DNA of 64,000 nt from Marmoricola sp. (GTDB lineage: Bacteria; Actinomycetota; Actinomycetes; Propionibacteriales; Nocardioidaceae). A program made the position numbers and the translations under genes. Under the pieces are notes generated by a model. That model saw nothing but the letters and a program-made list of their open reading frames with translations, searched no databases and was not told where the DNA came from. Shown piece by piece: positions 5,799 to 64,000 of this stretch (positions are counted from its first letter, which is position 1; every line of letters starts with the position of its first letter). Location: assembly GCA_025965315.1 (NCBI GenBank), contig JAOPXD010000056.1, positions 1 to 64,000 on the forward strand, in the 5' to 3' direction.

Positions 5799-5806
5799 CC
5801 CTTGCC

Positions 5807-20534: not shown

Positions 20535-21305
20535 TCACCGGGGTCCGAAGCGCTGTCCGCCGTCGAGCCGGATCGTCTCGCCGTTCAGGTACCCGTTGGT
20601 CAGCGCGTAGACCGCGAGCGAGCCGAACTCCTCGGGATGTCCGAGCCGCTTCGGGAACGGCACCGCCGCGCCGAACTTCGCGATCATCTCCTCGCCGACC
20701 GACTCCATGATCGGCGTCCGCATCGTTCCCGGCGCGATGCAGACCACCCGGACGCCGACCGAGCTGAGGTCGCGGGCAGCGACGATCGTGAGCCCTGCGA
20801 CGCCGGCTTTGGCAGCTGCGTACGCGCTCTGACCGATCTGCCCCTCGTACGCCGCGATGCTCGCGGTCGTCACGATCGCGCCGCGGGCACCGTCCTCGTC
20901 GGGCTCGGTGGTGGCGATCGCGGCTGCGGCGAGGCGCAGCACGTTGTAGGTGCCGGTGAGGTACAGGTCGATGGTCTTGGTGAAGCCCTTCAGCGTGGCC
21001 GGCGTCCCGTCCTTGCCGACGATCTTCTCGGCGACGCCCCAGCCACCGTGCGCGGTGACGGCGTACCGCAGCGTGCTTAGCTCCTGCGCAGCGGCGATCG
21101 CGCCACCCACCGCCTCGTCGTCGAGGACGTCGGTACGGACGTAGCGGACCGCGTCCCCCAGCTCGGCCGCAAGCTTCTCGCCCTTCTCGTCGGAGAGGTC
21201 GGCAATGACCACGTACGCGCCGGCGTCGACCAGCTGACGGACGACGGCCTCGCCGAGGCCTCCTGCACCACCGGTCACGATCGCTGAGCTGTTCGCGAGT
21301 TCCAT
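20535..21305 (-). CDS. SDR-family 3-hydroxyacyl-CoA dehydrogenase (HSD10-like)
   Basis: A 256-residue short-chain dehydrogenase. The NAD site is VTGGAGGLGEAVV near residue 10, the catalytic set is Ser in TTASIAAYEGQ and Tyr-x3-Lys in SAYAAAKAG, and the segment YLTGTYNVLRLAA is typical of type-10 17-beta-hydroxysteroid/3-hydroxyacyl-CoA dehydrogenases. It would oxidise a 3-hydroxyacyl-CoA or ring hydroxyl with NAD+. ATG 21305 shares a base with the stop of the CoA ligase gene (TGATG). It is the last of eight genes transcribed from 28327. Confidence 0.88.
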   Translation of the reverse strand: MELANSSAIVTGGAGGLGEAVVRQLVDAGAYVVIADLSDEKGEKLAAELGDAVRYVRTDVLDDEAVGGAIAAAQELSTLRYAVTAHGGWGVAEKIVGKDGTPATLKGFTKTIDLYLTGTYNVLRLAAAAIATTEPDEDGARGAIVTTASIAAYEGQIGQSAYAAAKAGVAGLTIVAARDLSSVGVRVVCIAPGTMRTPIMESVGEEMIAKFGAAVPFPKRLGHPEEFGSLAVYALTNGYLNGETIRLDGGQRFGPR

Positions 21306-22885
21306 CAGTCTTGCCTTTCGTCGGTTCGTGGGGAGCTGAAGCGGTCGCGCAGCTCGGATTTGGCAACCTTCGCCAGCCCGGTGCGTGGGAGCGAGCCCAC
21401 GATCTCGAGACGTTCGGGGAACTTCTGCCGCATCAGGCCCGCGCGGTCGAGGTGGGCGACGAGGTCGGGCAGGGCGGGGGGAGCGCCCGGGTCGGACGGC
21501 GTGACGATTGCGCAGACGAGCTCCCCTCGCTCTCCGTCGGGAACGCCGATGACGGCGACCTCGGCAACGGCGGGATGCGTGGCGAGCAGCTCTTCGATCT
21601 CCTGCGGTGCGATGTTCTCGCCCTTGCGGTTGATGATGTCCTTGAGCCGTCCGACGACCTCGACGTGGCCGGACGGGTACAGCAGGCCGAGGTCCCCGGT
21701 GCGGAACCAACCGTCGGCGGTGAACGCCTTCTGGGTCTCGGTCGGGTCGGTGTAGCCGCGGCACACCGCCCAACCGGAGACCTGGATCTCGCCGAGCACT
21801 CCTGACGGGCAGGCCTGCCCGCTCGGATCCAGGATGCGCACGGTGTTCCCCGGGATCACGCGGCCGTCGGTCGCAGCCAGCACCGCTGGGTCGTCGGTCG
21901 GATCGGCGACCGCGATCATCGGGACCTCGGTCATCCCGTAGTCGTGGGCCAGCACAGCGCCGAGCTCGTCGCGGACCGCACCGAACATCTCCGGCGGGCA
22001 CGCCGCTCCTCCGCCCTTCAGAGTCCTCAGCCCGGGCACCAACTTCTCGGGAGCGACGGCACGCGCCATCGTCAGCAGAGCGCTGTAGAACGCCGGGGCC
22101 CCGCCGGTCGTGGTCACCCCGAAACGGCGGTAGTCGGCGGTGGCCCGATCAGGCACGAAGGCCTCCTGGACCAGGACCGGGTACCCGCCCGCCAGCGCAG
22201 CGATCAGGTAGACGACACCGCCGATGTGCGCGACCGGGAATCCCATCGCAGCGACTTCGCCGGGTTGCTCGCCCAGCCTGCCTCCGCCAGCGAACGCCGT
22301 CGCGGCTGCCAGCAGTGTGCCGTCGGTGTGCCGGGCACCCTTCGGCGCTCCGGTCGAGCCCGAGGTGAAGTAGATCCACGCGACGGTCTCAGGATCAGCG
22401 TTCGACCCGGCATCGAAGCTCGCGCCCGGGTCGGCCTCCGGAGCGTCATGTCCGATCTCGATGACGTGCGCACCGGGGGCGTCGGCCGCGATCCCGGCAG
22501 CCATCGCGCCGTAGTCGAAGCCTTGCCAGGCCCCTGGCACCAGGTAGTACTCCGCGCGCGACGTCGCCAGAGCGACAGCGACCTCCCTGGTCCGGTACTG
22601 CGTGATCATCGGCGCCTGGACGGCGTCGAGCCGACGCAGGGCGGCCAGGACCAGAAGGGCGCTGATCCGGGTGGGGAGCTGCCAGGACACGCGGCTTCCC
22701 CGGCCGATGCCTTCAGCAGCCAGCGCTGCTGCCACCCGTTCAGCCCGATCGGCGAACTCGCGGCACGTGACGGTCGTCCCGGACTCGTCGACCAGCAGCG
22801 GAGCGTCCGGAGTGGTGCGCGCCCGCAGCGCGATCAGGTCATCGAGGGTGCGGGCCCCGATCATCCACGGCCACGGGCCCGTCAC
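21305..22885 (-). CDS. Acyl-CoA synthetase (AMP-forming)
   Basis: A 526-residue ANL-superfamily ligase. The phosphate-binding loop is YFTSGSTGAPKG, followed by YGMTE, the hinge motif WFRTGDLG and GRLKDIINRKGENI, with the C-terminal catalytic Lys in PRTGLAKVAKSEL. It activates a carboxylic acid to its CoA thioester. GTG 22885 overlaps the MaoC stop (GTGA). Placement in an operon with hydratase, retro-aldolase-like and thiolase genes suggests a substrate acid with a degradable side chain. Confidence 0.9.
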   Translation of the reverse strand: MTGPWPWMIGARTLDDLIALRARTTPDAPLLVDESGTTVTCREFADRAERVAAALAAEGIGRGSRVSWQLPTRISALLVLAALRRLDAVQAPMITQYRTREVAVALATSRAEYYLVPGAWQGFDYGAMAAGIAADAPGAHVIEIGHDAPEADPGASFDAGSNADPETVAWIYFTSGSTGAPKGARHTDGTLLAAATAFAGGGRLGEQPGEVAAMGFPVAHIGGVVYLIAALAGGYPVLVQEAFVPDRATADYRRFGVTTTGGAPAFYSALLTMARAVAPEKLVPGLRTLKGGGAACPPEMFGAVRDELGAVLAHDYGMTEVPMIAVADPTDDPAVLAATDGRVIPGNTVRILDPSGQACPSGVLGEIQVSGWAVCRGYTDPTETQKAFTADGWFRTGDLGLLYPSGHVEVVGRLKDIINRKGENIAPQEIEELLATHPAVAEVAVIGVPDGERGELVCAIVTPSDPGAPPALPDLVAHLDRAGLMRQKFPERLEIVGSLPRTGLAKVAKSELRDRFSSPRTDERQD

Positions 22886-23410: not shown

Positions 23411-24598
23411 TCAGTGCGTACTCAGCAACAGGGCACCGGCGACAGGACCGCCGCCGACGCCGACGGCAGCGACCTCGGCGCCCGCGACCTGACGCTCGCC
23501 GGCCGAGCCCCACAGCTGGATGCACGCCTCGTGGAGCAGACCCATCCCGTGCAGTCGGCCGCCGGACAGCTGGCCACCGGCGGTGTTCAGCGGGAGGTCA
23601 CCGTCCAGAGCGATCCGGGACCCGTCCTCGATGAACGCCCCGACCTTGCCGTGCTCGCAGAAGCCGAGAGCATCGAGCCACTGCACAGTCAGGAAGCTGA
23701 ATCCGTCGTACAGCTGGGCGACGTCGACGTCGCTCGGCCGCAACGAGGTCCGCTCCCACAAGGTCGCGGCCGCGTCGTGGGCGGCCATCGTGGTCAGATC
23801 GATCCGCTGGTCCCAGGTCGCTCGTTCGAACATCCCGGTGCCGACCGACTCGATCGTCAGCGGATGCCTCGGCAACCCGGCGGCAGCGTCGCGCCCGGAG
23901 ACGATGACCGCCGTTGCGCCGTCGCACGGGATGTCGCAGTCGTAGAGACTGAGCGGCTCGGAGATCATCCGGCTCGCGAGGTAGTCGTCCATGGTGAGCG
24001 GGTCCCGGAACACGGCATCGGGATTGAAGCCCGCGTTGCGGCGAGCGTTGATCGCGATCTGGCCGAGCTGTTCGCGGGTCAGACCGTGCTCGTACATGTA
24101 CCGCTGTGCCGGCAGGGCCAGCCAGTTCGCCGGGGAGAGCGCGCCGAACGGGGCGGTGTACTCGAGGTGCTCGGGCAGCTCGCCCTCCGGGGTCAGCACC
24201 GAAGCGCGGTTGCCACCTGCCTGCGCTGTCGACTCCCACACCGACCGGAAGACCAGCACGTGGTTGGCGAGTCCGAGCGCGACTGCCATCGCCGCCTCGA
24301 TGACCGGGCCGATCTGGGCCGCGGTCTCCATCCCGCTCATGTACCACCGGGACCGCAGGCCCAGGGCGTTGCGGACGTCATGGACCCCGGCACCGGTGAA
24401 GCCCGGCGACGGGGCCATCGGACCGGGGTAGCTGGCGATCCCGTCGATGTCGTCCGGGGTCAACCCGGCGTCGGCGATCGCCCGCAAGGACGCTTCGAGC
24501 GTGAGGTCGAGTCCGGACCGCATCAGCTTGCGACCGACCTGGGACATCCCCGCGCCGGTGATCACCGAGCGACCTTCGAACGGTCCTCCGCGGCTCAT
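23411..24598 (-). CDS. Ltp2-like thiolase-fold retro-aldolase
   Basis: A 395-residue thiolase-superfamily protein without the nucleophilic Cys: the corresponding loop reads SGMETAAQIGP. The segment LYDGFSFLTVQWLDALGF has Tyr where thiolases have the HDxF His, and the C-terminal part (NTAGGQLSGGRLHGMG, HEACIQLWG) matches Ltp2, the aldolase that cleaves propionyl-CoA from the steroid side chain together with the DUF35 domain of ChsH2. The overlapping upstream gene (24595) encodes just such a DUF35 partner. The product is probably a ketone plus acetyl- or propionyl-CoA. The steroid identity of the substrate is not proven. Confidence 0.87.
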   Translation of the reverse strand: MSRGGPFEGRSVITGAGMSQVGRKLMRSGLDLTLEASLRAIADAGLTPDDIDGIASYPGPMAPSPGFTGAGVHDVRNALGLRSRWYMSGMETAAQIGPVIEAAMAVALGLANHVLVFRSVWESTAQAGGNRASVLTPEGELPEHLEYTAPFGALSPANWLALPAQRYMYEHGLTREQLGQIAINARRNAGFNPDAVFRDPLTMDDYLASRMISEPLSLYDCDIPCDGATAVIVSGRDAAAGLPRHPLTIESVGTGMFERATWDQRIDLTTMAAHDAAATLWERTSLRPSDVDVAQLYDGFSFLTVQWLDALGFCEHGKVGAFIEDGSRIALDGDLPLNTAGGQLSGGRLHGMGLLHEACIQLWGSAGERQVAGAEVAAVGVGGGPVAGALLLSTH

Positions 24599-25041
24599 GC
24601 CCGAGCCCGCTCGGGGCGGAACAGCGGCAACCAGACCTCGGTGTCGCCGGGTGCCGGCCAGTGCTCGAAGAACACCTCGACCCGGTCACCGATCCGGACT
24701 GCTTCCGGGTCGACGTCGACGAGCTGGCTGAAGATCCGGACGTCCCGGTCCTCGTCGAGCTCGACCAGGACGATCACGTACGGCGGTGGCATCGTCGGCA
24801 GCCACGGCTGCCGGTTGATCGTGTACGTCGCCACCACGCCCCTGCCGGAGACCGGCTCGGGAGCGACGTCCCGGCTGCGACAGCGGAAGCAGGCCGGTGC
24901 CGGCGGGTGGAAGAAGTGGCCGCAGTCGTGACACCGGTAGATCAGCAGCTCGCCGCGTTCGCCGCCTGACCAGAACGCTCGGGACTCGGCGCTCGGGCTG
25001 GGCGTGAGCCTGAACTCAGGCCGCTCGTAGGTGTCGGTCAC
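24595..25041 (-). CDS. Zn-ribbon/OB-fold (DUF35) protein, partner of the Ltp2-like aldolase
   Basis: A 148-residue protein. A rubredoxin-like zinc ribbon is formed by Cys37-x2-Cys40 and Cys51-x2-Cys54, followed by an OB fold (GRGVVATYTINRQPWL, then YVIVLVELDED). This is the ChsH2 C-terminal type that binds Ltp2. The start is GTG at 25041, three bases after the thiolase stop, and the stop overlaps the Ltp2-like ATG. Complex formation with the product of 23411 is inferred from the known Ltp2-ChsH2 complex. Confidence 0.87.
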   Translation of the reverse strand: MTDTYERPEFRLTPSPSAESRAFWSGGERGELLIYRCHDCGHFFHPPAPACFRCRSRDVAPEPVSGRGVVATYTINRQPWLPTMPPPYVIVLVELDEDRDVRIFSQLVDVDPEAVRIGDRVEVFFEHWPAPGDTEVWLPLFRPERARA

Positions 25042-25044
25042 AGA

Positions 25045-26205
25045 TCAATCCTTCTGGTTGCCGAGGATCGTCACAGCCGCTACCGCGGTGGGGCCACCGA
25101 TGTTGTGGGCAAGGCCGATCCTTGCCCCGTCGACCTGATTGTTGCCGTCGCCGCGCAGCTGCTCGAACAGCTCGACGCATTGCGCGACCCCGGTGGCGCC
25201 CGGCGGGTGGCCCTTGGCCTTGAGACCGCCGCTGACGTTGACCGGCATCGAGCCGCCGAAGGTGGTCGCTCCGGACTCCACGAGCTTGTAGGCCTCGAAC
25301 CGCTCGGCGAAGCCCAGGTCCTCGTAGCTGATCAGCTCGACAGCCGAGAAGCAGTCGTGAACCTCGGCCACGTCGACGTCTGCGGCGGTGATGCCGGCCA
25401 TCGCGTAGGCAGCCTTCGCCGCCCTCACCGTCGGCGGGAAGGTGGTCATGTCCTGCTTGTGCTGGTGCATCACCCTGTCCATCCCGAGACCCACGCCCCG
25501 GACCCAGACCGGGTTGTCGGTGTAGCGGTCGACGACGTCCTCGGAGACCAGCAGCAGCGCCGCGGCTCCGTCGCTCTGCGGGGTGCAGTCGTAGAGCCCG
25601 AACGGCGCCACCACCATCGGAGCGTTCAGGACCTGCTCGATGGTGATCTCGAACCGCAGCTGTGCCTTCGGGTTGGTCAGCGCGTGCTTGTGGTTCTTCA
25701 CCGCGACCATCGCCATGTGCTCGCGGGTCGCGGGCGACTCGTACAGGTAACGGGCTGCGTGCAGCGCGAAGTTCGCCGGCGCGACCAGGCCGAGCGGGTA
25801 GTCCCAGGCCATGTCGCGGGTCAGGCTGGCCCACTCCCAGAAGGTGCTGCGCGCCGATGATTCGCGGACCTTGTCGGCGCCGACGACCAGAGCCACGTCG
25901 ACCGCCCCGGAGCCGACGGCGTACGTCGCGTTCCGCACCGCGTCGTTCCCGGTGGCGCAGGCGTTCTCGACCCGGGTCACCGGGATGTCGAGCAGACCGC
26001 ACGAGTCGGCCAGGATCCCCGAAGGGAACCCGTCACTGGTGGTGAGCTCGCCGAACCAGGCGGCCTGGATGTCGTCCCGGTCCAGGCCCTTGTCCACGTG
26101 GGAGGCCATCTCGGAGACGGCCATCGGCACGAGCTCCTTGATGCCGAGGTCGAAGTGCTCCTTGAACACGGTCATCCCTGCGCCCACGATTGCCACGCGC
26201 TTCAT
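25045..26205 (-). CDS. Thiolase-family acetyl-CoA acetyltransferase
   Basis: A 386-residue thiolase of the SCP2/lipid-transfer type. The nucleophile is Cys83 in ENACATGNDAV; HDCFS and GHPPGATG supply the other catalytic residues, so it should be active in thiolytic cleavage of a 3-ketoacyl-CoA. ATG 26205 overlaps the stop of the upstream fusion gene (ATGA). Its genetic coupling to a Cys-less thiolase-like/DUF35 fusion suggests that the two proteins form a complex, as thiolases of this type often need a DUF35 partner. Confidence 0.88.
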   Translation of the reverse strand: MKRVAIVGAGMTVFKEHFDLGIKELVPMAVSEMASHVDKGLDRDDIQAAWFGELTTSDGFPSGILADSCGLLDIPVTRVENACATGNDAVRNATYAVGSGAVDVALVVGADKVRESSARSTFWEWASLTRDMAWDYPLGLVAPANFALHAARYLYESPATREHMAMVAVKNHKHALTNPKAQLRFEITIEQVLNAPMVVAPFGLYDCTPQSDGAAALLLVSEDVVDRYTDNPVWVRGVGLGMDRVMHQHKQDMTTFPPTVRAAKAAYAMAGITAADVDVAEVHDCFSAVELISYEDLGFAERFEAYKLVESGATTFGGSMPVNVSGGLKAKGHPPGATGVAQCVELFEQLRGDGNNQVDGARIGLAHNIGGPTAVAAVTILGNQKD

Positions 26206-27395
26206 CGGGTCTCTCCCTCGTTCGCTGCGGTCTGGGGAAGCAGGGCGTAGCCGTAGTCGGGCACTCCTGACCGGACGGCGACGCGGCGCAGGACGAGCGT
26301 CCCCCTGTCGCCGATCTGGGTGGTCCCGGCAGGAGCGCCGGTGACCTTGACCAGCGCTCGCACCTCGACGCCGTCGAGCTGGACGATCGCCAGCGAGTAC
26401 GGCGTCGGGAGCCCGGGAACCGGCACGTGCACGGTCACCGTCGTGTAGACCTCTCCTGCACGGGGCAGCGGACTCAGGCTCCACCCGGTCTCCGAGCCGC
26501 ATTCCAGGCAACGGAACCGCGGGGGCAGCGCCAGCGCGCCGCAGGCGTCGCACCTTCCGGCTTCCCAGCGGAGCTTGGAGTCGAAGGCACGCTCGTAGGC
26601 GGCCAACGAGATGGCGATGTCCGGGCCGGGTGTCGTGGTCCGTCGCGGGACCGCGATCGCCGTGGCCTCGTCGCGCCGTACCCGGGGTACGGCGGACACC
26701 GTCACCGCGGTCGCCGATGCCTGCTCGACGGCCAGCACCAGGCCGCCGTCCCCGACGTACTCCAGCGCAGCGACAGCGAAGAGTGCTGCCGCTGCACCCA
26801 CCACAGGCAGTGCCGGTGGCTTGCCGTCGGTCAGGGTGGCAGCGTGCTTGGCCGGGACGCCGGCGACGACCACCGGCTTGGTGTCGAGGTCGAGAAGCGT
26901 GACTGCCTTGTCGCCGCCGCGCACCGACTCCAGGCGCGGGTCCTCGTAGTTGCGCCGGACCCCGTCCTCGCCGCGGCTACGGACCGGCAGGCTGCGGACG
27001 ACGCGACCCGTCAGGGAGATCTCCACGCCCTCGGCTCCGAGGTAAGCAGCCGCAGCACCCGCAGGAGCGAGATCTGCGCCGATCACCAGGGTGCCCGGGT
27101 CCGCTTCGGCCAGGGCGTCGAGCAGGGCCGGCGCGCCGCCGATCTGTTCCACCGTGTGCACGTCGTCCGGCAGACCGAGACCGGCGAGCAGGGGCGCACT
27201 GTTGCCACCCTCGAGCAGCGGCAGGTCCCGGGAGACGAGCACCACTCTGGTCACCACGGCATCGGTCAGGTCGGCCAGCGCAGCACGTCCGGCGGCGACC
27301 GCCATCGTGACCACGTCCTCATCGGGTCCGGCAGCCCGGGCACCGTCGGTCCCCCAGACCGGGAGGTAGGTACCGAGTGCAGTGAGGCGGGTCAT
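26202..27395 (-). CDS. Cys-less thiolase-like/HMG-CoA-synthase-like domain fused to DUF35
   Basis: A 397-residue fusion. Residues about 1-265 have a thiolase/HMG-CoA synthase-like pattern (LGTYLPVWG at the start, LVIGADLAPAG later), but the region where the nucleophilic Cys should stand reads EQIGGAPALLDAL, and no Cys occurs before residue 282. The C-terminal part is a DUF35 unit with zinc ligands Cys282, Cys285, Cys296 and Cys299 and an OB fold. It is flanked by overlapping genes for an SDR and an active-looking thiolase. I infer a structural or substrate-presenting partner of the thiolase at 25045 rather than an independent synthase. Confidence 0.78.
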   Translation of the reverse strand: MTRLTALGTYLPVWGTDGARAAGPDEDVVTMAVAAGRAALADLTDAVVTRVVLVSRDLPLLEGGNSAPLLAGLGLPDDVHTVEQIGGAPALLDALAEADPGTLVIGADLAPAGAAAAYLGAEGVEISLTGRVVRSLPVRSRGEDGVRRNYEDPRLESVRGGDKAVTLLDLDTKPVVVAGVPAKHAATLTDGKPPALPVVGAAAALFAVAALEYVGDGGLVLAVEQASATAVTVSAVPRVRRDEATAIAVPRRTTTPGPDIAISLAAYERAFDSKLRWEAGRCDACGALALPPRFRCLECGSETGWSLSPLPRAGEVYTTVTVHVPVPGLPTPYSLAIVQLDGVEVRALVKVTGAPAGTTQIGDRGTLVLRRVAVRSGVPDYGYALLPQTAANEGETR

Positions 27396-28327
27396 CTGAG
27401 GTGCCCTGTCTGTGGTTGGAGGCCGGCGAGGCCGAGCGGTGCGAGACCGAACGCCTTGCGCAAGCCCTGATCGATCTCGCCTGCCTCAAGCATCTCGCCG
27501 CTCCTCGACCGGTACCCGCCGCGCACCGACCAGGAATCGACCGGCATCACAGCGCTGCCGTCGATGCGCAGGACGCGGCCGGTCAGCCAGCCCGACTGCT
27601 CCGAGCAGAGCCAGGCCACGACGGGCGAGGAGTTCGCCGGGTCGAGCGGGTTCCAGCCGGCATCCGGCTCGACAGCCGCCATGCCGACAGCCGCCGTCAT
27701 CCGGGTGGCGGCCACCGGGGAGATGCAGTTGGCGGTCACTCCGTAGCGACCTGCTTCCATCGCTGTGGTCTGGGTCATGTTGGCGATCGCGGCCTTGGCA
27801 GCGCCGTAGGCGACCTGTCCGACGTTGCCGGCCAGTCCGGTACCCGAGGTGGTGTTGACGATCCGGCCGACGACCGGTCGCCCTGCCTTCTGCTCGGAAC
27901 GCCAGTAGTCGCAGGCGTGCTTGGTCATCGTGAAGGTGCCCTTGAGGTGCACGTTGATGACGGCATCGAAGGCGTCCTCGGTCATCGAGGTGATGGTCGC
28001 GTCGCGAAGGATTCCGGCGTTGTTGACGATTGCGTCGATTTTGCCGTAGGTCGCGACAGTTTCAGCCATCAGCGACGCGACTCCGGACCAGTCCGAGACC
28101 GAGCTTCCGTTGGCCGAGGCGGTCCCGCCGCCATCGCGGATCGCGGCCACGACCTCGGCCGCCGGGTCGTCGCCCGAGGAGTCACCGGCAAGGCCCACAC
28201 CGAGGTCGTTCACCACGACCGTCGCTCCGTGGGCGGCAAGTTCGAGGCAATGACTGCGCCCGATCCCGCGGCCACCACCGGTCACGATGACGACCCGACC
28301 CTCCAGCATGCGCTGCACGTCAGACAC
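27392..28327 (-). CDS. SDR-family 3-hydroxyacyl-CoA dehydrogenase (MFE2-type)
   Basis: A 311-residue short-chain dehydrogenase. The NAD site is VTGGGRGIGRSHCLEL, followed by VVVNDLGVG, which is typical of the dehydrogenase domain of peroxisomal-type multifunctional enzyme 2. The catalytic site is NTTSGTG with Tyr-x3-Lys in VAYGAAKAA. It oxidises a 3-hydroxyacyl-CoA. The start is GTG at 28327, first gene of an eight-gene operon. Upstream lies a TTGACG/17/TATGGT promoter overlapping the operator at 28375. Confidence 0.88.
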   Translation of the reverse strand: MSDVQRMLEGRVVIVTGGGRGIGRSHCLELAAHGATVVVNDLGVGLAGDSSGDDPAAEVVAAIRDGGGTASANGSSVSDWSGVASLMAETVATYGKIDAIVNNAGILRDATITSMTEDAFDAVINVHLKGTFTMTKHACDYWRSEQKAGRPVVGRIVNTTSGTGLAGNVGQVAYGAAKAAIANMTQTTAMEAGRYGVTANCISPVAATRMTAAVGMAAVEPDAGWNPLDPANSSPVVAWLCSEQSGWLTGRVLRIDGSAVMPVDSWSVRGGYRSRSGEMLEAGEIDQGLRKAFGLAPLGLAGLQPQTGHLR

Positions 28328-28441: not shown

Positions 28442-29251
28442 ATGTCGCACCCGTTCGGACCGGAACTGCTGGTCGAGTCGCAGGGCGCCGTACGGATCGT
28501 GACGCTCAACCGCCCGGAGGCCATGAACGCCACCAACGGTCCTCTGCACGGGGCCCTGATCGCGGTGTGGCCGTACCTGGCGGCCGACCCCGACGCCCGC
28601 GCCGTCGTCCTGACCGGCGCCGGTCGCGCCTTCAGCGCCGGTGGCGACCTCCAGCACTTCGTCGAGCTCTGGAACGACCGTCCCGCACGGCAGCACGAGA
28701 TCGACGGCGCCGGCAAGCTGCTCCAGGCAATGCTCGAATTCCCGCTGCCCGTCGTGGCCGCAGTGAACGGTGCGGCGGTCGGACTGGGCTGCAGCCTGGC
28801 CGCGGCGAGCGACATCGTCCTGATCGCCGAGACCGCCTTCGTGGCAGACCCGCACGTGGGCATCGGGCTCACCGCGGCCGATGGCGGTGCTCCGACGTGG
28901 CCGCTGTTGATGGGCATGCTGAAGGCCAAGGAGTACCTCCTCACCAGCGAGCGGATCCCGGCTGCGGTGGCCGTCGAGCTCGGACTCGCCAACCGGGTGG
29001 TCCCGGACGCGGACCTGATGGCGGAGGCGATGAAGCTCGCCCAGAAGCTGGCCGCCTCACCCCCCCAGGCGGTGCAGAGCACCAAGCGCGCCCTGAACAT
29101 GCACATGAAGCGGGCGATCGCGGGCGTGCTCGAGTACGCGCTCCTCGAGGAGTTCCACTCCTTCGACACCCCCGAGCACCAGGCCTTGGTGCGCTCGTTC
29201 CTGGAGCGTGGCGCAGCTGCCAAGGCTGCGAAGGCCGCGGAGTCTGCGTGA
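28442..29251 (+). CDS. Enoyl-CoA hydratase/isomerase
   Basis: A 269-residue crotonase. It has the oxyanion motif GAGRAFSAGGDLQHFVEL and NGAAVGLGCSLAAASDIVLI. At the second catalytic position it reads DPHVGIGLTAADGGA, with Asp rather than Glu, as in some isomerase-like members. ATG 28442 is preferred to an in-frame ATG at 28412 because GAGGAGG (28431-28437) lies just before it and the family N-terminus starts there. It is the first gene of a five-gene operon that continues with four ACADs. The GTG of the next gene overlaps its stop. Confidence 0.86.
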   Translation: MSHPFGPELLVESQGAVRIVTLNRPEAMNATNGPLHGALIAVWPYLAADPDARAVVLTGAGRAFSAGGDLQHFVELWNDRPARQHEIDGAGKLLQAMLEFPLPVVAAVNGAAVGLGCSLAAASDIVLIAETAFVADPHVGIGLTAADGGAPTWPLLMGMLKAKEYLLTSERIPAAVAVELGLANRVVPDADLMAEAMKLAQKLAASPPQAVQSTKRALNMHMKRAIAGVLEYALLEEFHSFDTPEHQALVRSFLERGAAAKAAKAAESA

Positions 29252-30423
29252 GTACGACAGCAGCACCGGTCGAGTGGCAGACAGACGTCGACGCCTACGC
29301 ACAGGCGCTGCGTGAGCTGTTCTCGGACGATCCGGCATTCGACCAGTGGCGCGGCGTGCACCACGCCACCACCGAGGACCGGGTCCGGGCCACCGCCACG
29401 TTGCTGGGCCACCTCTACGCGGGCGGCTGGAACAGGTTCGGCTGGCCCGAGGCCGTCGGCGGCCTGGGCGGCGACGCCCGTCACCGCGCCGCCCTGTACG
29501 ACGAGCTCTCGGCAGCGGGTCTTCCGGTCCCGGACCCCTGCCTGCTGATGGAGACGTTGGCCAACCCGCTGGTGCACTTCGAACCCGGGCTGGCAGCAGA
29601 GATGCTGCCCCGGTGGCTGCGTGGCGAGGAGTGGTGGGGCCAGGGGTTCTCCGAGCCCGAGGCCGGCAGCGACCTCGCCTCGCTGCGCTGCCGCGCACGC
29701 TTGGACGGCGAGAACTACGTGGTCTCGGGCTCGAAGCTCTGGATGTCGTCCGGCGCGACCGCGACCCGGATGATGTGCCTGGTCCGCACCGGCACCCCGG
29801 AGTCACGGCACCGCGGCCTGACCATGATCCTGATCGATGTCGACTCCCCCGGCCTGAGCGTCCGACCGGTCGCCCTGGCGAGCGGGCTGAACGAGGTCGC
29901 CGAGGTCTTCTTCGACGACGTCGTGGTCCCGGCCGACCGCGTGATCGGCAGCCATGACGGCGGCTGGGGCGTCGCGATGTACCTGCTCCAGTTCGAGCGC
30001 GCGATGTACGCCTGGCTCGCTGCCTGTGTCGCTCTGCGCCGGTTCTACGAGCTGCGCGATCGCGTGATGACGAACGGCGGGTTGCCCGACGGCGCTACCC
30101 GTCGGCTGGGCGAGTGCTACACCGACCTCGTCTCGCTGCGGGCCCGGAGCGCCGAGACGGTACGACGACTCTCGGCTGCCGAAGCAGTCGGCCCGGAAGC
30201 CAGCGTCGACAAGATCCTGCTCGCCACCGCCGAGATCAGCCTGCACGACCTCGCCCGCGACCTGCTCGGCGACCATTTCCTGACCGGCACCGACGACGGC
30301 GCCGACGAATGGCGCCACGACTGGTGGTACAGCCGGTCGGCGACCATCCTCGGCGGGTCCTCGGAGGTCCAGCGGACGATCCTGGCGGACCACGTTCTCA
30401 AGCTCCCGAAGGAGAACGCATGA
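29248..30423 (+). CDS. Acyl-CoA dehydrogenase, large-type subunit
   Basis: A 391-residue ACAD with FSEPEAGSDLASL, the FAD-binding C-terminal motif ILGGSSEVQRTILADHVLKLPK, and a region before it (WRHDWWYSRSAT) that does not show the usual catalytic GGxGxxxE motif. The start is GTG at 29248 overlapping the hydratase stop (GTGA). The next gene, also an ACAD and overlapping by four bases, is probably its heteromeric partner, as in the alpha2beta2 FadE pairs of steroid catabolism. Confidence 0.87.
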   Translation: MSTTAAPVEWQTDVDAYAQALRELFSDDPAFDQWRGVHHATTEDRVRATATLLGHLYAGGWNRFGWPEAVGGLGGDARHRAALYDELSAAGLPVPDPCLLMETLANPLVHFEPGLAAEMLPRWLRGEEWWGQGFSEPEAGSDLASLRCRARLDGENYVVSGSKLWMSSGATATRMMCLVRTGTPESRHRGLTMILIDVDSPGLSVRPVALASGLNEVAEVFFDDVVVPADRVIGSHDGGWGVAMYLLQFERAMYAWLAACVALRRFYELRDRVMTNGGLPDGATRRLGECYTDLVSLRARSAETVRRLSAAEAVGPEASVDKILLATAEISLHDLARDLLGDHFLTGTDDGADEWRHDWWYSRSATILGGSSEVQRTILADHVLKLPKENA

Positions 30424-31385
30424 GCGGCCTCGACCTGGACACGATCACCGAGGTGACCGCGTCGGTGCGCGAGGTGTTCGCAGCCGGTACCGGGGCCGCG
30501 GTTCTCGCCAAGGCCCTCGACGAGCTCGGCTGGACCGAGGTGGTCGAGGCAGATCCCGCGATCGCGACCACGATCCTGTTCTCCGAGCAGGGCCGGGCAC
30601 TGGCCAGCTCCCGGCTGCTGGACGACGTGGTGCTGAATCAGCTCGGCTCGGTGCTGCCGGCCGCATCCGGTTCCCGTGCCGTCCTCTACCCGCGGACCGG
30701 AGCGACCCCTGGAACAGTCGGGATCCTGCTCGGCGCCGTCGAGGACGACACCGAGATCGTCTCGATGGCGATGGACGAGAACGGCAACGCATCCTGGTGC
30801 CTGCGACCGGCGTCCGACTTCACCACCGAGGCGATCACCGGCTTCGACCCGACCTGCGGGTGGTCGCTCGCTCGCACGAGTACGGCGGCGACCGCTGTCG
30901 CTGCAGCCGGCACGAGCTGGGACGACGCACGCGCGGCAGGCCGTCTGGCCATCACCGCCGAGATCATCGGGGTCTGCGCCTCCGCTCTCGAGCTCGCGGT
31001 CTCGCACACGAGCGCGCGCCACCAGTACGGCCGGGCCCTGGCTTCCTTCCAGGCGGTCCGGCACCAGCTGTCCGAGAGCCACGCGGCCATCGAGTCCGCA
31101 CGCAACACCCTGGCAGCTGCGTACGCCGCGTCTCCCGAGCACGGTGGCGGCGCCTGGGCGGCGAAGGTCGCCAAGGTCCGCGCCGGCCAGACCCAGGCGA
31201 TCGTGATGCGCCGAGGGATCCAGGTCCTCGGCGCCATGGGGCTCACCCTGGAGAGCGAGATGCATCGCTACGTCACGCGTGCGGCCGCGCTCGATGCGCT
31301 GCTCGGCGGACACGCCGAGCTCGCCGTCGAGATCGGCACCGAACTTCTCGGCGGCGCTGCTCCGGCACGCGTCGTCACCATCTGA
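30420..31385 (+). CDS. Short acyl-CoA dehydrogenase-like subunit
   Basis: A 321-residue ACAD, about 60 residues shorter than normal, with a reduced N-terminal and beta domain. The C-terminal helical domain is recognisable (HQYGRALASFQAVRHQLSE; VLGAMGLTLESEMHRYVTRA), with Glu in the position of the catalytic base. FAD motifs such as SEPxAGSD are missing, which fits a partner subunit that depends on the product of 29248. ATG overlaps the upstream stop (ATGA). Confidence 0.82.
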   Translation: MSGLDLDTITEVTASVREVFAAGTGAAVLAKALDELGWTEVVEADPAIATTILFSEQGRALASSRLLDDVVLNQLGSVLPAASGSRAVLYPRTGATPGTVGILLGAVEDDTEIVSMAMDENGNASWCLRPASDFTTEAITGFDPTCGWSLARTSTAATAVAAAGTSWDDARAAGRLAITAEIIGVCASALELAVSHTSARHQYGRALASFQAVRHQLSESHAAIESARNTLAAAYAASPEHGGGAWAAKVAKVRAGQTQAIVMRRGIQVLGAMGLTLESEMHRYVTRAAALDALLGGHAELAVEIGTELLGGAAPARVVTI

Positions 31386-31397
31386 GAGCGAGTCGAC

Positions 31398-32621
31398 ATG
31401 AACGACATCGAGACCTTCACCGCCGAGGTGCGCGCGTTCCTGGACGCGAACGCGCAGCGGTTCCCGGGAGGCGAGGCGCACCTTGCCTGGGGCAAGGGCG
31501 ATGACCACACCGGCTACTTCAGCGACGACACCGCTGAGGTCGAGGCAGCGAAGTTCGCGGCTGCGCGGTCGTGGCAGCGCACCCGCTACGAGGGCGGGTT
31601 CGGCTGGATCACCGGTCCCTCGTCGTACGGCGGCCGCGAGCTGAGCCCGGTGCACGACCTGGTCTACGACCTCCTCGAGGCCGAGTACGACGTCCCGGAC
31701 ACCGGGGTGATCTCCCTGATCGGGCTGGGCATGATCGGGCCGACGATCCTGGCCCACGGACAGCAGGCCATCAAGGACCGCTACCTGCCGGCGATGTACC
31801 GGGGCGACGCGATCGCCTGCCAGCTCTTCAGCGAGCCTGCTGCAGGATCCGACCTCGCCGGCGTGACCACCAAGGCCGTCCAGGACGGCGACGTCTGGCG
31901 GCTGACCGGGCAGAAGGTCTGGACCTCGGTCGCGCACCAGGCCCAGCTCGGGATGGCGCTGTGCCGCACCAACCCTGATGTTCCCAAGCACAAGGGCATC
32001 ACCGCGTTCCTGGTCGATCTCGCTTCCCCCGGCGTCGAGATCCGCCCGCTGCGTCAGATGAACGGCGGCGCCGAGTTCAACGAGGTCTTCCTCACCGACG
32101 TCGTCGTTCCTGACGACCATCGGCTCGGCGAGATCGACGGTGGCTGGCGCGTTGCGCTGACCACCCTGATGAACGAGCGCGCTAGTGTCGGCGGCGAGAA
32201 CGAAGGCGCCCTCGCCCGGGTCCTCTCGGACGGATTCCTGGCCTCGTTGCTGCACGAGACCGGCCACGGCGCCGACCCGGCCGCACGCCGCCGGCTCGCC
32301 GAGATCACCGCCGACCTGACCGCTGCCGACTACCTCAACCGGCAGACCGTACGACGACTCGTCGGCGGTGCCGAGCCCGGGCCCGAGGCATCGGTCTCGA
32401 AGATGATGTGGGCCCAGAACCTGACCCGCGTCGCCCACCTGGCCGCCGAGCTCGTCGGCCCGCGCCTGACCGCCGACACCGGCGCCTGGGGCACGTACTC
32501 CTGGACCGAGCTGCTGCTCGGGAGCCCGGCCTTCCGGATCCTCGGAGGCACCGAGGAGATCCTGAAGAACATCCTCGGTGAACGTGTTCTCGGCCTGCCC
32601 AAGGAACCGGTCGCCCCGTGA
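31398..32621 (+). CDS. Acyl-CoA dehydrogenase, large-type subunit
   Basis: A 407-residue ACAD with FSEPAAGSDLAGV, the beta-domain GQKVWTSVAHQAQLGM, and the C-terminal motif RILGGTEEILKNILGERVLGLPKEP. It is similar in type to the FadE subunits that carry the FAD contacts in heteromeric steroid ACADs. It is followed after 27 bases by a second ACAD of the partner type. Confidence 0.88.
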   Translation: MNDIETFTAEVRAFLDANAQRFPGGEAHLAWGKGDDHTGYFSDDTAEVEAAKFAAARSWQRTRYEGGFGWITGPSSYGGRELSPVHDLVYDLLEAEYDVPDTGVISLIGLGMIGPTILAHGQQAIKDRYLPAMYRGDAIACQLFSEPAAGSDLAGVTTKAVQDGDVWRLTGQKVWTSVAHQAQLGMALCRTNPDVPKHKGITAFLVDLASPGVEIRPLRQMNGGAEFNEVFLTDVVVPDDHRLGEIDGGWRVALTTLMNERASVGGENEGALARVLSDGFLASLLHETGHGADPAARRRLAEITADLTAADYLNRQTVRRLVGGAEPGPEASVSKMMWAQNLTRVAHLAAELVGPRLTADTGAWGTYSWTELLLGSPAFRILGGTEEILKNILGERVLGLPKEPVAP

Positions 32622-32648
32622 GTACCTACCTGTCGTCCGAGGAGAACC

Positions 32649-33773
32649 ATGTCTGAGCTGACCACCGACGCCGACCGCGAAGACCTGCGCGCAGGAGCCC
32701 GTGCGGTCCTGAGCGCCAAGGCGACCGACGAGCAGAACCGCACGGCGATCGCCAGCGAGGCCGGCTACGACGTTGCCCTGTGGGCGCAGCTCGCCAGCGA
32801 GCTCGGCCTGCACTCGATGGTGTTTCCCGAGGAGCACGGCGGTAGCGGGTTCGGGTTCGTCGAGCTCGGCGTCGTGCTCTCCGAGATGGGTCGGGCGCTT
32901 CTCCCCGGGCCGTTCTTCACCTCCGTCGTACTCGCCGGATCAGCTTTGGTCGTCTCCGGTGACGACGAGGCCCGGGCGTCGTACCTGCCGGGGATCGCTG
33001 ACGGCTCGACGGTTGCCACCCTGGCGGTTCAGGAGGCTGACGGCGCGTGGCGCCACGACGGTTTCGACTCCGAAGCGGTGCACGAGGGTGGCCGGTGGTC
33101 GCTGACCGGTGAGAAGTCGCTGGTCCCGTTCGGCACCGTCGCCTCGCTCATCGTGGTCGCGGCCACCACTGCTGACGGTCCGTCGTTGTTCGCCGTCGAG
33201 GCCGGTGCAGCCGGGTTGACGAGCGAGGCGCTGACCACGCTGGACATCACCCGACCGCTCGCCCGGTTGAGGTTCTCCCGAACCCCTGCGGTGCTGATCG
33301 GCGTGACCGGTCAGGCCCCCGCGATCCTGGACGCCGTCCTGGACCGGGCGACCGCGGCACTCGCTGCCGAGCAGGTCGGCGCAGCACGCGCATGCCTGGA
33401 GATGGCAGTCGCGTATGCCAAGGACCGGTCCCAGTTCGGGCGGCAGATCGGTTCGTTCCAGGCGATCAAGCACAAGTGCGCCGACATGTTCGCCCGGATC
33501 CAGATCGCCGAAGCCGCGGCCGTCGAGGCGGCTCGTGCCGTCGACGGCCTCGAGGACGCACCGCCGGTCGGTGTCGCCGCCGCGGTCGCGCACTCGGTCT
33601 GCTCGGAGGCGTTCATGTTCGCTGCTGCCGAGAACATCCAGGTGCACGGCGGGATCGGTTTCACCTGGGAACACCCGGCGCACCTGTACTTCCGCAGGGC
33701 CAAGGCATCGCAGCTGATGTTCGGCGGTCCAGGGGTCTACCACGAGCGGTTGCTCCAGCGGATGGGCGTGTAA
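32649..33773 (+). CDS. Acyl-CoA dehydrogenase, partner subunit
   Basis: A 374-residue ACAD. The beta-domain motif is degenerate, but the C-terminal catalytic segment QVHGGIGFTWEHPAHLYFRR is intact with its Glu base, as in FadE27/FadE29-type subunits. RSQFGRQIGSFQAIKHKCAD is the conserved interface helix. ATG follows GGAGAA. It is probably the catalytic partner of the product of 31398. It ends the operon; the following 330 bases contain only a degraded Fic fragment. Confidence 0.88.
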   Translation: MSELTTDADREDLRAGARAVLSAKATDEQNRTAIASEAGYDVALWAQLASELGLHSMVFPEEHGGSGFGFVELGVVLSEMGRALLPGPFFTSVVLAGSALVVSGDDEARASYLPGIADGSTVATLAVQEADGAWRHDGFDSEAVHEGGRWSLTGEKSLVPFGTVASLIVVAATTADGPSLFAVEAGAAGLTSEALTTLDITRPLARLRFSRTPAVLIGVTGQAPAILDAVLDRATAALAAEQVGAARACLEMAVAYAKDRSQFGRQIGSFQAIKHKCADMFARIQIAEAAAVEAARAVDGLEDAPPVGVAAAVAHSVCSEAFMFAAAENIQVHGGIGFTWEHPAHLYFRRAKASQLMFGGPGVYHERLLQRMGV

Positions 33774-33779
33774 CCGGGA

Positions 33780-34090
33780 GCGAGCGCGGCAGGCCATTGC
33801 GCCGCGTCATGGCCGGAGGTTGGCAGGTCCGGACGAACGCGTTCAGGGGCCTCGACAAGGAGATCGGTGTGCAGGCATGCGTGGCGGCCGCTCCCATTCG
33901 GGAACGGGTGAATGCCCACGAGCTTGTGGTGGCACTTCACAGCGGCCTGCTCGATCACGCCAGCTTCATCGGAACCGAACCAGTACTTCGCGCCATCCAC
34001 CAGGTCCTTGACAGCAGCAGGAACCCGAACGGGGTCGATCCCGAAGGTCATCTCGCGCCGCCGATAGGTGCCAGCCCAGGCGGATGCCCC
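33780..34090 (-). pseudogene. Degraded Fic-domain (mobile mystery protein B-like) fragment
   Basis: On the minus strand, residues read WAGTYRRREMTFGIDPVRVP, then LVDGAKYWFGSDE, then KCHHKLVGIHPFPNGSGRHACLHTDLL given here in parts: HHKLVGIHPFPNG and SGRHACLHTDLLV (Fic motif at 33854-33910). This tracks the Fic part of mobile mystery protein B. The catalytic GNGR is changed to GSGR and the usual HARL to HACL. An in-frame stop lies a few codons before WAGT, and similarity ends after DLLV. An ATG at 34051 would open a 104-codon frame, but it starts inside the domain. It is a non-functional remnant occupying the 332-base gap after 33773. Confidence 0.7.
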
Positions 34091-35269: not shown

Positions 35270-36402
35270 GCGCGCGGCGACGGTTCACGCGGCAGGCCGA
35301 GGATCCGTTCGGCGAGGATGTTGCGCTGGATCTCGCTGGTGCCACCGAGGATGGTCTGCGCGTGGCTGACGAGCATCCGTTGGACCAGCGGCTCGTCCTG
35401 CTCGGAGGCCAACGCATCTGGTCCGAGCGCTTCGATGCCCAGGTCGCCGATGGCTCGCTGGGTCTCGGCCGTCATCAGCTTGAGGACCGAGAAGGACGCG
35501 TCGCCGGGCTCGGCGCCCTCAGCGATCGCACGTTCCCAGGTGGTACGGAGCAGCCAGACCCGGACCCAGAGCTCGCTCACGCTGGCCCGCAGCGAGGCAC
35601 CGAGTCGCCCTCGGGACTCCGCAGCAGCGACCAGGTGCTCCAGGGCGCGGAACATCTCCACGGAGTTCGCGCCGAGGGAGAGTCGTTCACGCCCCAGGGT
35701 CGTGGTCGCGACCTTCCAGCCCTGGCCTTCGGCACCGATCAGCGCGTCCAGCGGAAGCACCGCACCCGTGAAGTAGACCTCGTTGAACTTGCTCTCCCCG
35801 TCCATCTGGCGCAGCGGCCGCACCTCGATGCCGGGGGTGTCCATCGAGACCACGAACATCGACAGGCCGGCGTGTCCGGACCCGCCCGTCCGCGCGAGCA
35901 GGATCCCGAAGTCCGAGCCGACTCCCCCGCTGGTCCACACCTTCTGTCCGTCGACAACCCAGCCTTCCGGAGTCTCGCGCGCGCGCGTGCGTACCGAAGC
36001 GAGGTCCGAACCGGCGTCCGGTTCGGAGAACAGCTGGCACCACAGGTGCTCGCCCGTCCTGATCGACGGCAGGTACGCCGACTTCTGCAGCTCCGAGCCG
36101 TACGCCATCAGGACCGGGCCCACCAGGTCGGGGCCGACGATGCTGAGCTGGCGCGGTACGTCAGCCCGTGCCGCCTCTTCGGCGAAAGCCGCCTGGTCGG
36201 CCACCGACGCGTCCCGTCCACCCCACTGCTCGGGCCAGTGCAAGCAGGCGTAGCCGGCCTCGGCAAGAAGTGCCTGCCAGGCACGACCGGTCGGGACGTC
36301 GCCGGCCTGGGGCGTCGGACCGTAGTCGTGCAGTCCTTCCGGTCCCTGCGTCGCGGCGAGCCAGGCCCGCACCTCGGCGCGGAATCCGGACGGCTCGCTC
36401 AT
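35266..36402 (-). CDS. Acyl-CoA dehydrogenase, large-type subunit
   Basis: A 378-residue ACAD with WPEQWGGRDAS, FSEPDAGSDLASV, GQKVWTSGGVGSDF and the C-terminal TILGGTSEIQRNILAERILGLPRE. It lacks a clear GGxGxxxE catalytic segment, as expected for the FAD-binding member of a heteromeric pair. The likely partner is the product of 37981 in the same operon, which has the catalytic segment but lacks these FAD motifs. ATG overlaps the thiolase stop (ATGA). Confidence 0.87.
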   Translation of the reverse strand: MSEPSGFRAEVRAWLAATQGPEGLHDYGPTPQAGDVPTGRAWQALLAEAGYACLHWPEQWGGRDASVADQAAFAEEAARADVPRQLSIVGPDLVGPVLMAYGSELQKSAYLPSIRTGEHLWCQLFSEPDAGSDLASVRTRARETPEGWVVDGQKVWTSGGVGSDFGILLARTGGSGHAGLSMFVVSMDTPGIEVRPLRQMDGESKFNEVYFTGAVLPLDALIGAEGQGWKVATTTLGRERLSLGANSVEMFRALEHLVAAAESRGRLGASLRASVSELWVRVWLLRTTWERAIAEGAEPGDASFSVLKLMTAETQRAIGDLGIEALGPDALASEQDEPLVQRMLVSHAQTILGGTSEIQRNILAERILGLPREPSPRA

Positions 36403-37547
36403 GTCGACAGGATGGTCACGGCCGCGGTGCCGGGCGACCCGTAGAGCTGGGCGTAGCCGACCTTCGCGCCCTCGACCTGACGACCGCCGGCGCGACCGCG
36501 CAGCTGGGTGGTCAGCTCGAACACCTGGCGCAGCCCGGAGGCACCGACCGGCTCCCCGTTGGCGAGCAGGCCGCCGTCGGTGTTGACCGGCATCCGGCCA
36601 CCGATCTCGGTGGCGCCCTCGGCGATCAGCTTCTCCTGGTCACCGTCGGCGCAGAACCCGTTCTCGGCCATGTGGATGATCTCCGAGCCGGCGTCGGTGT
36701 CCTGGAGTTGGATCACGTCGACGTCCTCGGGACCGATCCCCGCCAGCTCGTACGCCGCCCGCGAGGCGTAGACCGTCGGGCTGAGGTCGGCCTCGATCGG
36801 CAGCGACGGGCTGAGCAGCTCGAACGCCCCTTCCTTGCGGGAGAACAGCGTGCTCGCCTTGAGGAAGACCGGCGTGCCGCCGTACCGGTGCGCCTGGTCG
36901 GCGCGGCAGACCACAGCGGCGGCGGCGCCCTCGTCGGGACCGCAGTACATGTACTGGCGCAGCGGGTAGTTCAGCACCGGCGAGGCCAGGATCTCCTCGA
37001 CCGACATCTGCTTGTTGCGCCAGGCGTACCCCGTCCGCTCGCCGTTGCGGAACGCCTTGACGGCCACCCGTGCGAGCGTCTCGTGGGAGATGCCGTGATC
37101 GTTCATGTAGCGGTTGATCTTCATGCCGAAGAAGTGCGTGGTCAGGAAGAGTCCCGCCTCGCCGTACCAGTCCGGGAGACCGGAGACCGAGGGGTGCGCG
37201 GAGAACGCGCCGCGCGGGTGCTTGTCCAGGCCGACCGCGACGGCGACGTCAGCCTCGCCGAGGCGCACCGAGTTCGCTGCTTGCGCGAGAACGTTGCCGC
37301 CCGAGGCGCAGCCGGTGAAGGTCGAGCGTGCCGGGATGCCGGTCAGGCCGAGCAGCCCGGTGATCGCCTCGGGGTTGAAGACCTCCATGCTCGAGGCCCA
37401 CAGCGAGCCCACGTCGCCCCACGCGACGCCTGCGTCGCCGAGGGCGTCGATGACGGCGTCCTCGCCCATCTGCAGCGCGGACTTGCCGTCGTAGCGGCCG
37501 AAGGGGTGCATCCCCACGCCGATGATCGCAATGTCGTCGGTGCTCAT
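36399..37547 (-). CDS. Thiolase-superfamily lipid-transfer-type protein with altered active site
   Basis: A 382-residue thiolase-fold protein. A Cys is kept at the nucleophile position (Cys80 in TFTGCASGGN), but the His of HDxF is replaced (IQLQDTDAG) and the GHPxGATG His is also lost (NGEPVGASG). A normal thiolase reaction is therefore doubtful; the protein may instead catalyse a related C-C cleavage as the Ltp3/Ltp4 group does, or serve a different role. It overlaps by four bases with a DUF35-like gene upstream and with an ACAD downstream. Confidence 0.82.
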   Translation of the reverse strand: MSTDDIAIIGVGMHPFGRYDGKSALQMGEDAVIDALGDAGVAWGDVGSLWASSMEVFNPEAITGLLGLTGIPARSTFTGCASGGNVLAQAANSVRLGEADVAVAVGLDKHPRGAFSAHPSVSGLPDWYGEAGLFLTTHFFGMKINRYMNDHGISHETLARVAVKAFRNGERTGYAWRNKQMSVEEILASPVLNYPLRQYMYCGPDEGAAAAVVCRADQAHRYGGTPVFLKASTLFSRKEGAFELLSPSLPIEADLSPTVYASRAAYELAGIGPEDVDVIQLQDTDAGSEIIHMAENGFCADGDQEKLIAEGATEIGGRMPVNTDGGLLANGEPVGASGLRQVFELTTQLRGRAGGRQVEGAKVGYAQLYGSPGTAAVTILST

Positions 37548-37984
37548 GCGGTGTCTCCGTCCTGGACCGGCGCGAACGCGTAGATCATGGTTTCGTTGCC
37601 GTCCGCGTCGAGACCGAACGGCACGATCCGCAGCTCCATCTCCTGGCCGATGCTGAGCTTGTCCGGATCGGGCTCGGTGAGGCGGGCCTCGATCTTCAAC
37701 GCCCCGGGCAGCTCCACGTAGCCGACCGAGAACGGCTGGAACGACTTGACGTCGTCGTTGCCCGCGTACGGCGGCGCCGGTGGCCGGAACACCTGCGAGG
37801 TGAACGTCCACAAGGTCCCGCGACGTGGCAGCTCCACCTTCTCGAGCTCCTCCCGTACGCCGCCGACGAGTCGGTGGGAGCGGTACGGGAACTCGAGCTT
37901 CCCGTCGGAACCCTTGCCGGCGATCAGGCTCGGCGAGTCGGACGGCCAGGTGAAGAGGTCCGGGGCGATCGGGACTTGGGTCAT
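37544..37984 (-). CDS. OB-fold DUF35-like protein lacking the zinc ribbon
   Basis: A 146-residue protein with the OB-fold pattern of DUF35 partners (RRGTLWTFTSQVFRPPAPPY; FSVGYVELPGALKIEARL). It contains no Cys at all: the place of the zinc ribbon reads GKGSDGKLEFPYRSHRLVGG. It overlaps both the ACAD upstream and the thiolase-like gene downstream (ATGA at each junction), so it is most likely the obligate partner of the product of 36399. Confidence 0.78.
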   Translation of the reverse strand: MTQVPIAPDLFTWPSDSPSLIAGKGSDGKLEFPYRSHRLVGGVREELEKVELPRRGTLWTFTSQVFRPPAPPYAGNDDVKSFQPFSVGYVELPGALKIEARLTEPDPDKLSIGQEMELRIVPFGLDADGNETMIYAFAPVQDGDTA

Positions 37985-41302: not shown

Positions 41303-41367
41303 GATGCACACCTCGGTGTCGTGGCGGCTCGTGCCGCAGGTCCTGTGTCGCTCGACGCTATCCATAT

Positions 41368-60097: not shown

Positions 60098-60103
60098 GTC
60101 CGG

Positions 60104-63980: not shown

Positions 63981-64000
63981 TTGGAACCCACCGCTTCGGC
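63977..64000 (-). CDS. 3' end of the preceding mce gene (mceC-like), cut by the window edge
   Basis: The minus strand reads seven codons (AEAVGSK) then TGA, overlapping the mceD GTG by four bases as at other junctions here. The rest of the gene lies outside the window; assignment as mceC rests on the usual mce gene order. Confidence 0.45.
   Translation of the reverse strand, partial: AEAVGSK

Follow-up and report, generated by a model that had tools for sequence, protein, structure and literature searches.

A shortened HMG-CoA synthase-like domain fused to DUF35 as a likely non-catalytic subunit of an actinobacterial thiolase complex

We found that the window (the whole stretch of 64,000 nucleotides analyzed here) encodes a protein, FUS, in which a compacted domain of the HMG-CoA synthase (HMGCS) type is joined to a DUF35 unit, and whose gene overlaps that of an SCP2-type thiolase (TH1). 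By analogy with related complexes, FUS is quite probably part of a thiolase complex in which it has no catalytic role of its own, with an N-terminal half that has an HMGCS-type fold and has lost its nucleophile, and a DUF35 domain that serves TH1. We consider FUS most likely to be a variant of a known system, a probable non-catalytic assembly subunit like PhlA/PhlB. The initial annotation had proposed a pseudo-enzyme scaffold that brings a DUF35 domain to the thiolase, a reading that is probably right given the Ala or Gly at the nucleophile position in all 22 aligned members, the constant thiolase neighbor and the precedent of PhlACB (PMC6392133). The features are listed below (L numbers denote other loci).

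26202-27395, minus strand: FUS, 397 amino acids, pseudo-HMGCS (PhlA-like) domain and DUF35 unit in one chain, ATG start (ORF, Cys positions, relatives)
26622-27395, minus strand: residues 1-258 of FUS, compacted HMGCS/PhlA-like condensing-enzyme domain without nucleophile (profiles, hhalign, models)
27132-27134, minus strand: Ala88 codon of FUS, aligned with Cys114 of archaeal HMGCS and Gly115 of PhlA (two MAFFT modes)
26490-26570, minus strand: zinc ribbon of FUS, residues 276-302, Cys 282, 285, 296 and 299 (PF12172)
26304-26471, minus strand: DUF35 OB fold of FUS, residues 309-364 (PF01796)
25045-26205, minus strand: TH1, SCP2-type thiolase, predicted partner of FUS (motifs, match to 6ESQ chain A, adjacency)
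24595-25041, minus strand: stand-alone DUF35 protein, more likely the partner of TH2 (Pfam; no match in mycobacteria-like FUS-TH1 loci)
23411-24598, minus strand: TH2, Ltp2-like thiolase-fold protein, putative retro-aldolase (sequence, families, Ltp2 motif; PMC12329534)
22882-23397, minus strand: MaoC-like hydratase (PF01575; syntenic)
21305-22885, minus strand: acyl-CoA ligase, FadD-like (PF00501; syntenic)
27392-28327, minus strand: SDR dehydrogenase, 3' end overlapping the start of FUS (PF00106; also upstream of FUS in L069-L073)
20535-21317, minus strand: second SDR dehydrogenase (PF13561; an SDR follows TH1 in L069-L073 and L099-L100)
29241-33773, other strand: acyl-CoA dehydrogenase-like genes (named by sequence inspection)

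By Pfam, the operon runs SDR, FUS, TH1, DUF35, the thiolase-like TH2, MaoC, acyl-CoA ligase and SDR, and an enoyl-CoA hydratase gene accompanies it as well. FUS overlaps TH1 by 4 nt (26202-26205) and the upstream SDR gene by 4 bases; thus, with such overlaps at both of its ends, FUS lies within a tightly packed operon. A 104-amino acid Fic/DOC-family ORF at 33737-34051 (HPFPNGSGRH) runs into the end of an opposite-strand acyl-CoA dehydrogenase-like gene and is possibly a fragment left over from a mobile element.

Searches of Pfam and the PDB with the single FUS sequence matched the DUF35 half only and left the N-domain unmatched, but the thiolase/HMGCS-like label first given to this domain is supported by profile searches and by a low-confidence fold comparison. 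A three-sequence profile of the N-domain, run against all PDB sequences, matched PhlA entries and nothing else, a weak match for this family taken alone (E about 0.003), and hhalign, restricted to the N-domain, related this short family to longer HMGCS-DUF35 fusions with 98.7% probability (E 4.7e-16). The long fusions match PhlA (6.5e-63), archaeal HMGCS (4.3e-53) and a synthase-III-like chain of 9VBO over the whole N-domain. Since the AlphaFold model of full-length FUS, made from an alignment of five sequences, was poor (pLDDT 42), the alignments of its residues 1-228 with folds of KASIII and of type III PKS, at Z about 14 across ~193-204 residues, count as supporting only; the N-domain modeled alone, also from five sequences, gave a moderate result (pLDDT 62, pTM 0.67). 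We conclude that the N-domain of FUS is of the HMGCS/KASIII-type fold; the sequence comparisons establish this, and the structural models lend support. It is ~90 residues shorter than the HMGCS domain.

As the initial annotation had stated, residues 1-281 of FUS are free of cysteine, and the only Cys residues of the protein (282, 285, 296 and 299) are all zinc-ribbon ligands. We rejected the missing Cys as evidence by itself, since the probability of finding none in 281 residues is about 0.07 at the 0.93% Cys of 13 neighboring proteins, from which the background frequency was taken. Such a stretch is unremarkable by composition, and therefore the homologous nucleophile position is the proper test. 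Moreover, one or two Cys occur elsewhere in the N-terminal half of some relatives, and the complete lack of Cys is therefore in part a feature of the lineage.

The nucleophile position is occupied by Ala in 17 and by Gly in 5 of the 22 family members in the alignment, never by Cys, and both MAFFT modes placed Ala88 of FUS there, with reference archaeal HMGCS and PhlA sequences taken from their search alignments. The claim that the normal nucleophile is unusable is borne out by these residues. A different catalytic residue conserved in place of the Cys would have argued against a pseudo-enzyme; we looked for one and found Ala or Gly in 22 of 22; a substitute nucleophile was accordingly rejected. 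Glu82 of HMGCS is replaced by R56 in FUS (Arg in 21 of 22 members, His once), and where HMGCS has Asn270 the family has Thr, Val or Ser. His238 falls on Ala178 in one MAFFT mode and in a gap in the other, in a shortened region where the alignment is uncertain. The long fusions likewise lack Cys at the nucleophile position, with Leu, Ile or Ala there in the members inspected. Judged by these aligned positions, FUS is not an active HMG-CoA synthase: the nucleophile and Glu positions are lost, the His position less certainly so.

The C-terminal half of FUS, described at the outset as an intact zinc ribbon and OB fold, does appear complete. The OB fold scores above its cut-off (PF01796, 31.8 bits against 27.1) and is matched in 22 of 22 members; the zinc ribbon scores below its own (PF12172, 20.6 bits against 23.2), yet its four CX2C-X10-CX2C ligands are all present. 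Just 7 of the 22 aligned members, the FUS of the window included, keep all four zinc ligands. The FUS genes of a mycobacteria-like branch (L041-L044, L075-L087, L089) have all four zinc-ribbon Cys replaced, with the surrounding region kept, and the ligands are also absent from the long fusions L050, L051, L052 and L066. Thus, with zinc ligands lost in many relatives, the DUF35 half is not conserved as it is in PhlB, a point against the role proposed for FUS.

TH1 is indeed an active-looking thiolase, as had been said of the gene that FUS overlaps, with its motifs intact: C83 (ENACATG), HDCF with C285, and GHP. Its best solved relative by sequence is chain A of 6ESQ, the thiolase of an archaeal thiolase/DUF35/HMGCS complex. 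The same fusion does occur beside thiolases in other genomes, since TH1 follows FUS wherever the contig of a short-clade locus continues beyond FUS. In 22 of 25 loci the stop of FUS and the start of TH1 overlap by 4 nt, and the nucleophile Cys of the adjoining thiolase is kept in all 22 distinct short-clade loci in which the stretch is readable. Likewise, a TH1-like thiolase lies beside the long fusion in 23 of 23 loci, with the Cys present in all 22 that are readable. Another thiolase-family ORF of the window (36399-37811; Thiolase_C_1) is 32% identical to TH1.

TH2, by its sequence a putative Ltp2-like aldolase, has no Cys at the nucleophile position, carries YDGF in place of the YDHF motif of Ltp2, and is adjoined by a DUF35 gene of its own and by the MaoC gene. 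Neither TH2 nor the stand-alone DUF35 gene has a match in the mycobacteria-like FUS-TH1 loci, which points to TH1 as the partner of FUS and to TH2 as that of the stand-alone DUF35 protein.

Full-length relatives of FUS were found in Pseudonocardia, in one Streptosporangiaceae MAG and in one Actinoallomurus MAG, and an 864-kb plasmid record of Mycobacterium branderi carries one that is annotated as "OB-fold domain-containing protein"; identities across families are 48-73%. Among 395 sampled genomes of the class, 21 have a full-length relative, and these belong to four genera including that of the window. The other sampled genomes of this genus yielded no full-length FUS and gave matches that cover essentially the DUF35 part; thus, the cluster looks acquired. 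The long HMGCS-DUF35 fusions (~485 amino acids) are widespread in Actinomycetota, with matches at E 1e-30 in 49 of 296 sampled phylum genomes, some of which cover the HMGCS part only.

FUS-TH1 is the sole constant part across three operon contexts: a ligase/MaoC/TH2/dehydrogenase cluster around the pair (the window and L026-L029); SDR-FUS-TH1-SDR (L069-L073); and, in mycobacteria-like loci, aldehyde dehydrogenase-CoA transferase III-FUS-TH1-yrbE-mce (L092 6311-13042, L094 7022-19670, L096 7241-20000). Upstream of FUS in L026 there is just a 69-amino acid C-terminal SDR-like piece (5741-5947), possibly a remnant, where the window and L069-L073 have a full SDR gene. The kinds of genes that make up the third context are also present in the window, scattered at 47806-49296, 40052-41365 and 58983-64000; the last of these, at the window's edge, holds Mce/MlaD genes (PF02470 and PF11887 at 61459-62733).

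The short clade is under purifying selection. For the N-domain, the mycobacteria-like clade gives dN/dS values of 0.03-0.12, similar to those of the DUF35 half and of the thiolase. Close Pseudonocardia-like pairs give 0.2-0.3, and the comparison of the window with L028, which has a high dS, gives 0.37; L026 and L027 are too similar to each other for this use. In the tree, the sequences of the window, Pseudonocardia, Streptosporangiaceae and mycobacteria form the short clade as one monophyletic group (100/100 support), whose stem measures 2.24 changes per column and which is separate from PhlA, as PhlA groups with archaeal HMGCS; a long-branch warning affects the position of the short clade relative to the long fusions. 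Since PhlA clusters with archaeal HMGCS, FUS is not a PhlA orthologue. FUS may work like PhlA plus PhlB, with a catalytic loss that may be independent of that of PhlA.

A model for FUS comes from PhlACB, in which the Cys-less HMGCS-like PhlA (Cys replaced by Gly115), the DUF35 protein PhlB and the thiolase PhlC (Cys88) form a Phl(A2C2)2B4 complex (PMC6392133). PhlA lacks both Cys and Glu, only PhlC is catalytic and only PhlC residues touch the substrate; PhlB bridges the PhlA and PhlC dimers, and all three genes are required for activity (PMC6392133). In the archaeal thiolase/DUF35/HMGCS complex, the CoA site is built by all three proteins. We infer by analogy that FUS and TH1 form a complex, as well as its stoichiometry, reaction and substrate. 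The N-domain of FUS would most likely dimerize and dock beside TH1, and the DUF35 domain would clamp onto TH1 and complete the channel for CoA and substrate, as PhlA and PhlB do for PhlC. FUS would thereby supply both a PhlA-like wall and a DUF35 bridge, with the fusion providing the two parts in equal numbers, and TH1 alone would carry out the chemistry through Cys83. Its reaction would most likely be thiolysis of a beta-ketoacyl-CoA made by the neighboring ligase, acyl-CoA dehydrogenases, hydratases and SDR, in a pathway that is likely to be side-chain or fatty-acid-like degradation. The gene context points to CoA-thioester degradation rather than phenol C-acylation, and a hydrophobic substrate is suggested by the P450 and Mce genes that lie in other parts of the window.

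We considered that the N-domain might mainly bind ligand or might still be an enzyme. An N-domain that serves principally to bind acyl-CoA or acyl chains, for delivery or for chain-length control, and not as an architectural scaffold, is possible, if on the unlikely side: DUF35 has been proposed to deliver acyl-CoA and PhlA to control chain length (PMC2954200), the CoA site of the archaeal complex is shared at a three-protein interface, and the PhlA cavity is roomy enough for acetyl-CoA. However, the CoA-binding residues are absent from PhlACB, and a scaffold role is compatible with such binding anyway; even without catalysis, the FUS fold may have a ligand or a regulatory role. That the N-domain remains an enzyme by means of other conserved residues is very unlikely. 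Candidates for these (E83, R56, R131, R134 and E224-Q225) are invariant or nearly so across the 22 members, and related folds have been repurposed, as in the Ltp2 and Sal aldolases, which use the Tyr or Cys of a YD(H/C)F motif (PMC12329534), but the nucleophile and Glu positions are lost, the His position is probably not retained and ~90 residues of the HMGCS domain are gone. Moreover, PhlA, with the same losses, contributes no residue to acyl transfer.

A non-catalytic subunit of this kind might instead serve TH2, since TH2 lies within the same operon and Ltp2 and Sal, too, have DUF35 domains as binding partners (PMC12329534). We think this highly improbable, because TH2 has its own DUF35 gene alongside and the mycobacteria-like FUS-TH1 loci have no matched TH2 or stand-alone DUF35 gene. 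Least credible is that FUS is a decaying gene heading for loss. It has lost catalytic residues and part of its domain, one branch is without zinc ligands, and the stem of the clade is long (2.24 changes per column), with dN/dS of 0.2-0.37 in some pairs. In contrast, the frames are open in the members used, the overlap and the adjacency to the thiolase are conserved, identity across families reaches 48-73%, and N-domain dN/dS is 0.03-0.12 in the mycobacteria-like clade; we rejected decay on these selection data.

Inactive partners from the thiolase superfamily, as well as fusions of DUF35 to domains of that superfamily, have been on record since 2010 (PMC2954200), and long Cys-less fusions are common. 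A literature search for HMGCS-DUF35 fusions found no paper. We came across no description of the shortened clade, of the missing zinc ligands in its mycobacteria-like members and some of the long fusions, or of the FUS-TH1-Mce unit. A 451-amino acid "hydroxymethylglutaryl-CoA synthase" beside a "putative thiolase" has been listed in a mycobacterial island with an mce operon (PMC4263727). The PhlA-type arrangement of dead synthase, DUF35 and live thiolase, known from an antibiotic pathway, would thus also exist in fused and shortened form in degradative-looking actinobacterial clusters, some of them joined to Mce transporters. It is rather unlikely, but conceivable, that the short clade represents a portable module of two genes. 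A minimal dead synthase, which in some lineages has no zinc and almost no Cys, would then be an obligate fused chaperone and lid for the thiolase, tied to Mce importers that feed imported lipids into a dedicated CoA pathway. The FUS family is a natural experiment on the minimal requirements of such a dead subunit: the fold, the DED motif and the interface appear to be kept, while the nucleophile and even zinc appear dispensable. Naming the long fusions HMG-CoA synthase would wrongly predict an active enzyme; their N-domain matches NCBIfam hydroxymethylglutaryl-CoA synthase models of the archaeal HMGCS family, below the cut-off in the member examined in full.

Among known systems, PhlACB, the Friedel-Crafts C-acetyltransferase of Pseudomonas protegens (PDB 5M3K), resembles FUS/TH1 in having a Cys-less HMGCS-like part, a DUF35 part and an active thiolase-fold subunit encoded in one operon. 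FUS differs in carrying the A and B parts in one chain, with an A part ~90 residues shorter, in having a sister branch that lost the zinc ligands, and in a setting that looks CoA-thioester-degradative, whereas PhlACB acylates phloroglucinol. The archaeal acetoacetyl-CoA thiolase/DUF35/HMG-CoA synthase complex (PDB 6ESQ) has the same three parts, and the DUF35 half of FUS matches its DUF35 chain, but the archaeal HMGCS is active (Cys114, Glu82) and FUS has lost both positions. The long HMGCS-DUF35 fusions share with FUS the domain order, the lack of Cys at the nucleophile position and the neighboring thiolase; they have a full-length HMGCS domain, and the short clade stands apart from them (100/100). 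BbsA, the DUF35 partner of an SCP2-type thiolase in the degradative benzoylsuccinyl-CoA pathway, is not known to have an HMGCS-like half. Its deposited chain, in the benzoylsuccinyl-CoA thiolase BbsA/BbsB (PDB 7PXP), is 146 amino acids long. In the ChsH2-DUF35/Ltp2 and Shy/Sal complexes (PMC12329534), DUF35 is fused to another catabolic domain and binds a thiolase-fold enzyme, as we propose for FUS; unlike in FUS, however, DUF35 is joined to a MaoC hydratase in Shy and to a hydratase subunit in ChsH2, and the thiolase-fold partner is an aldolase, so that these complexes are nearer to TH2 and the stand-alone DUF35 protein of this operon.
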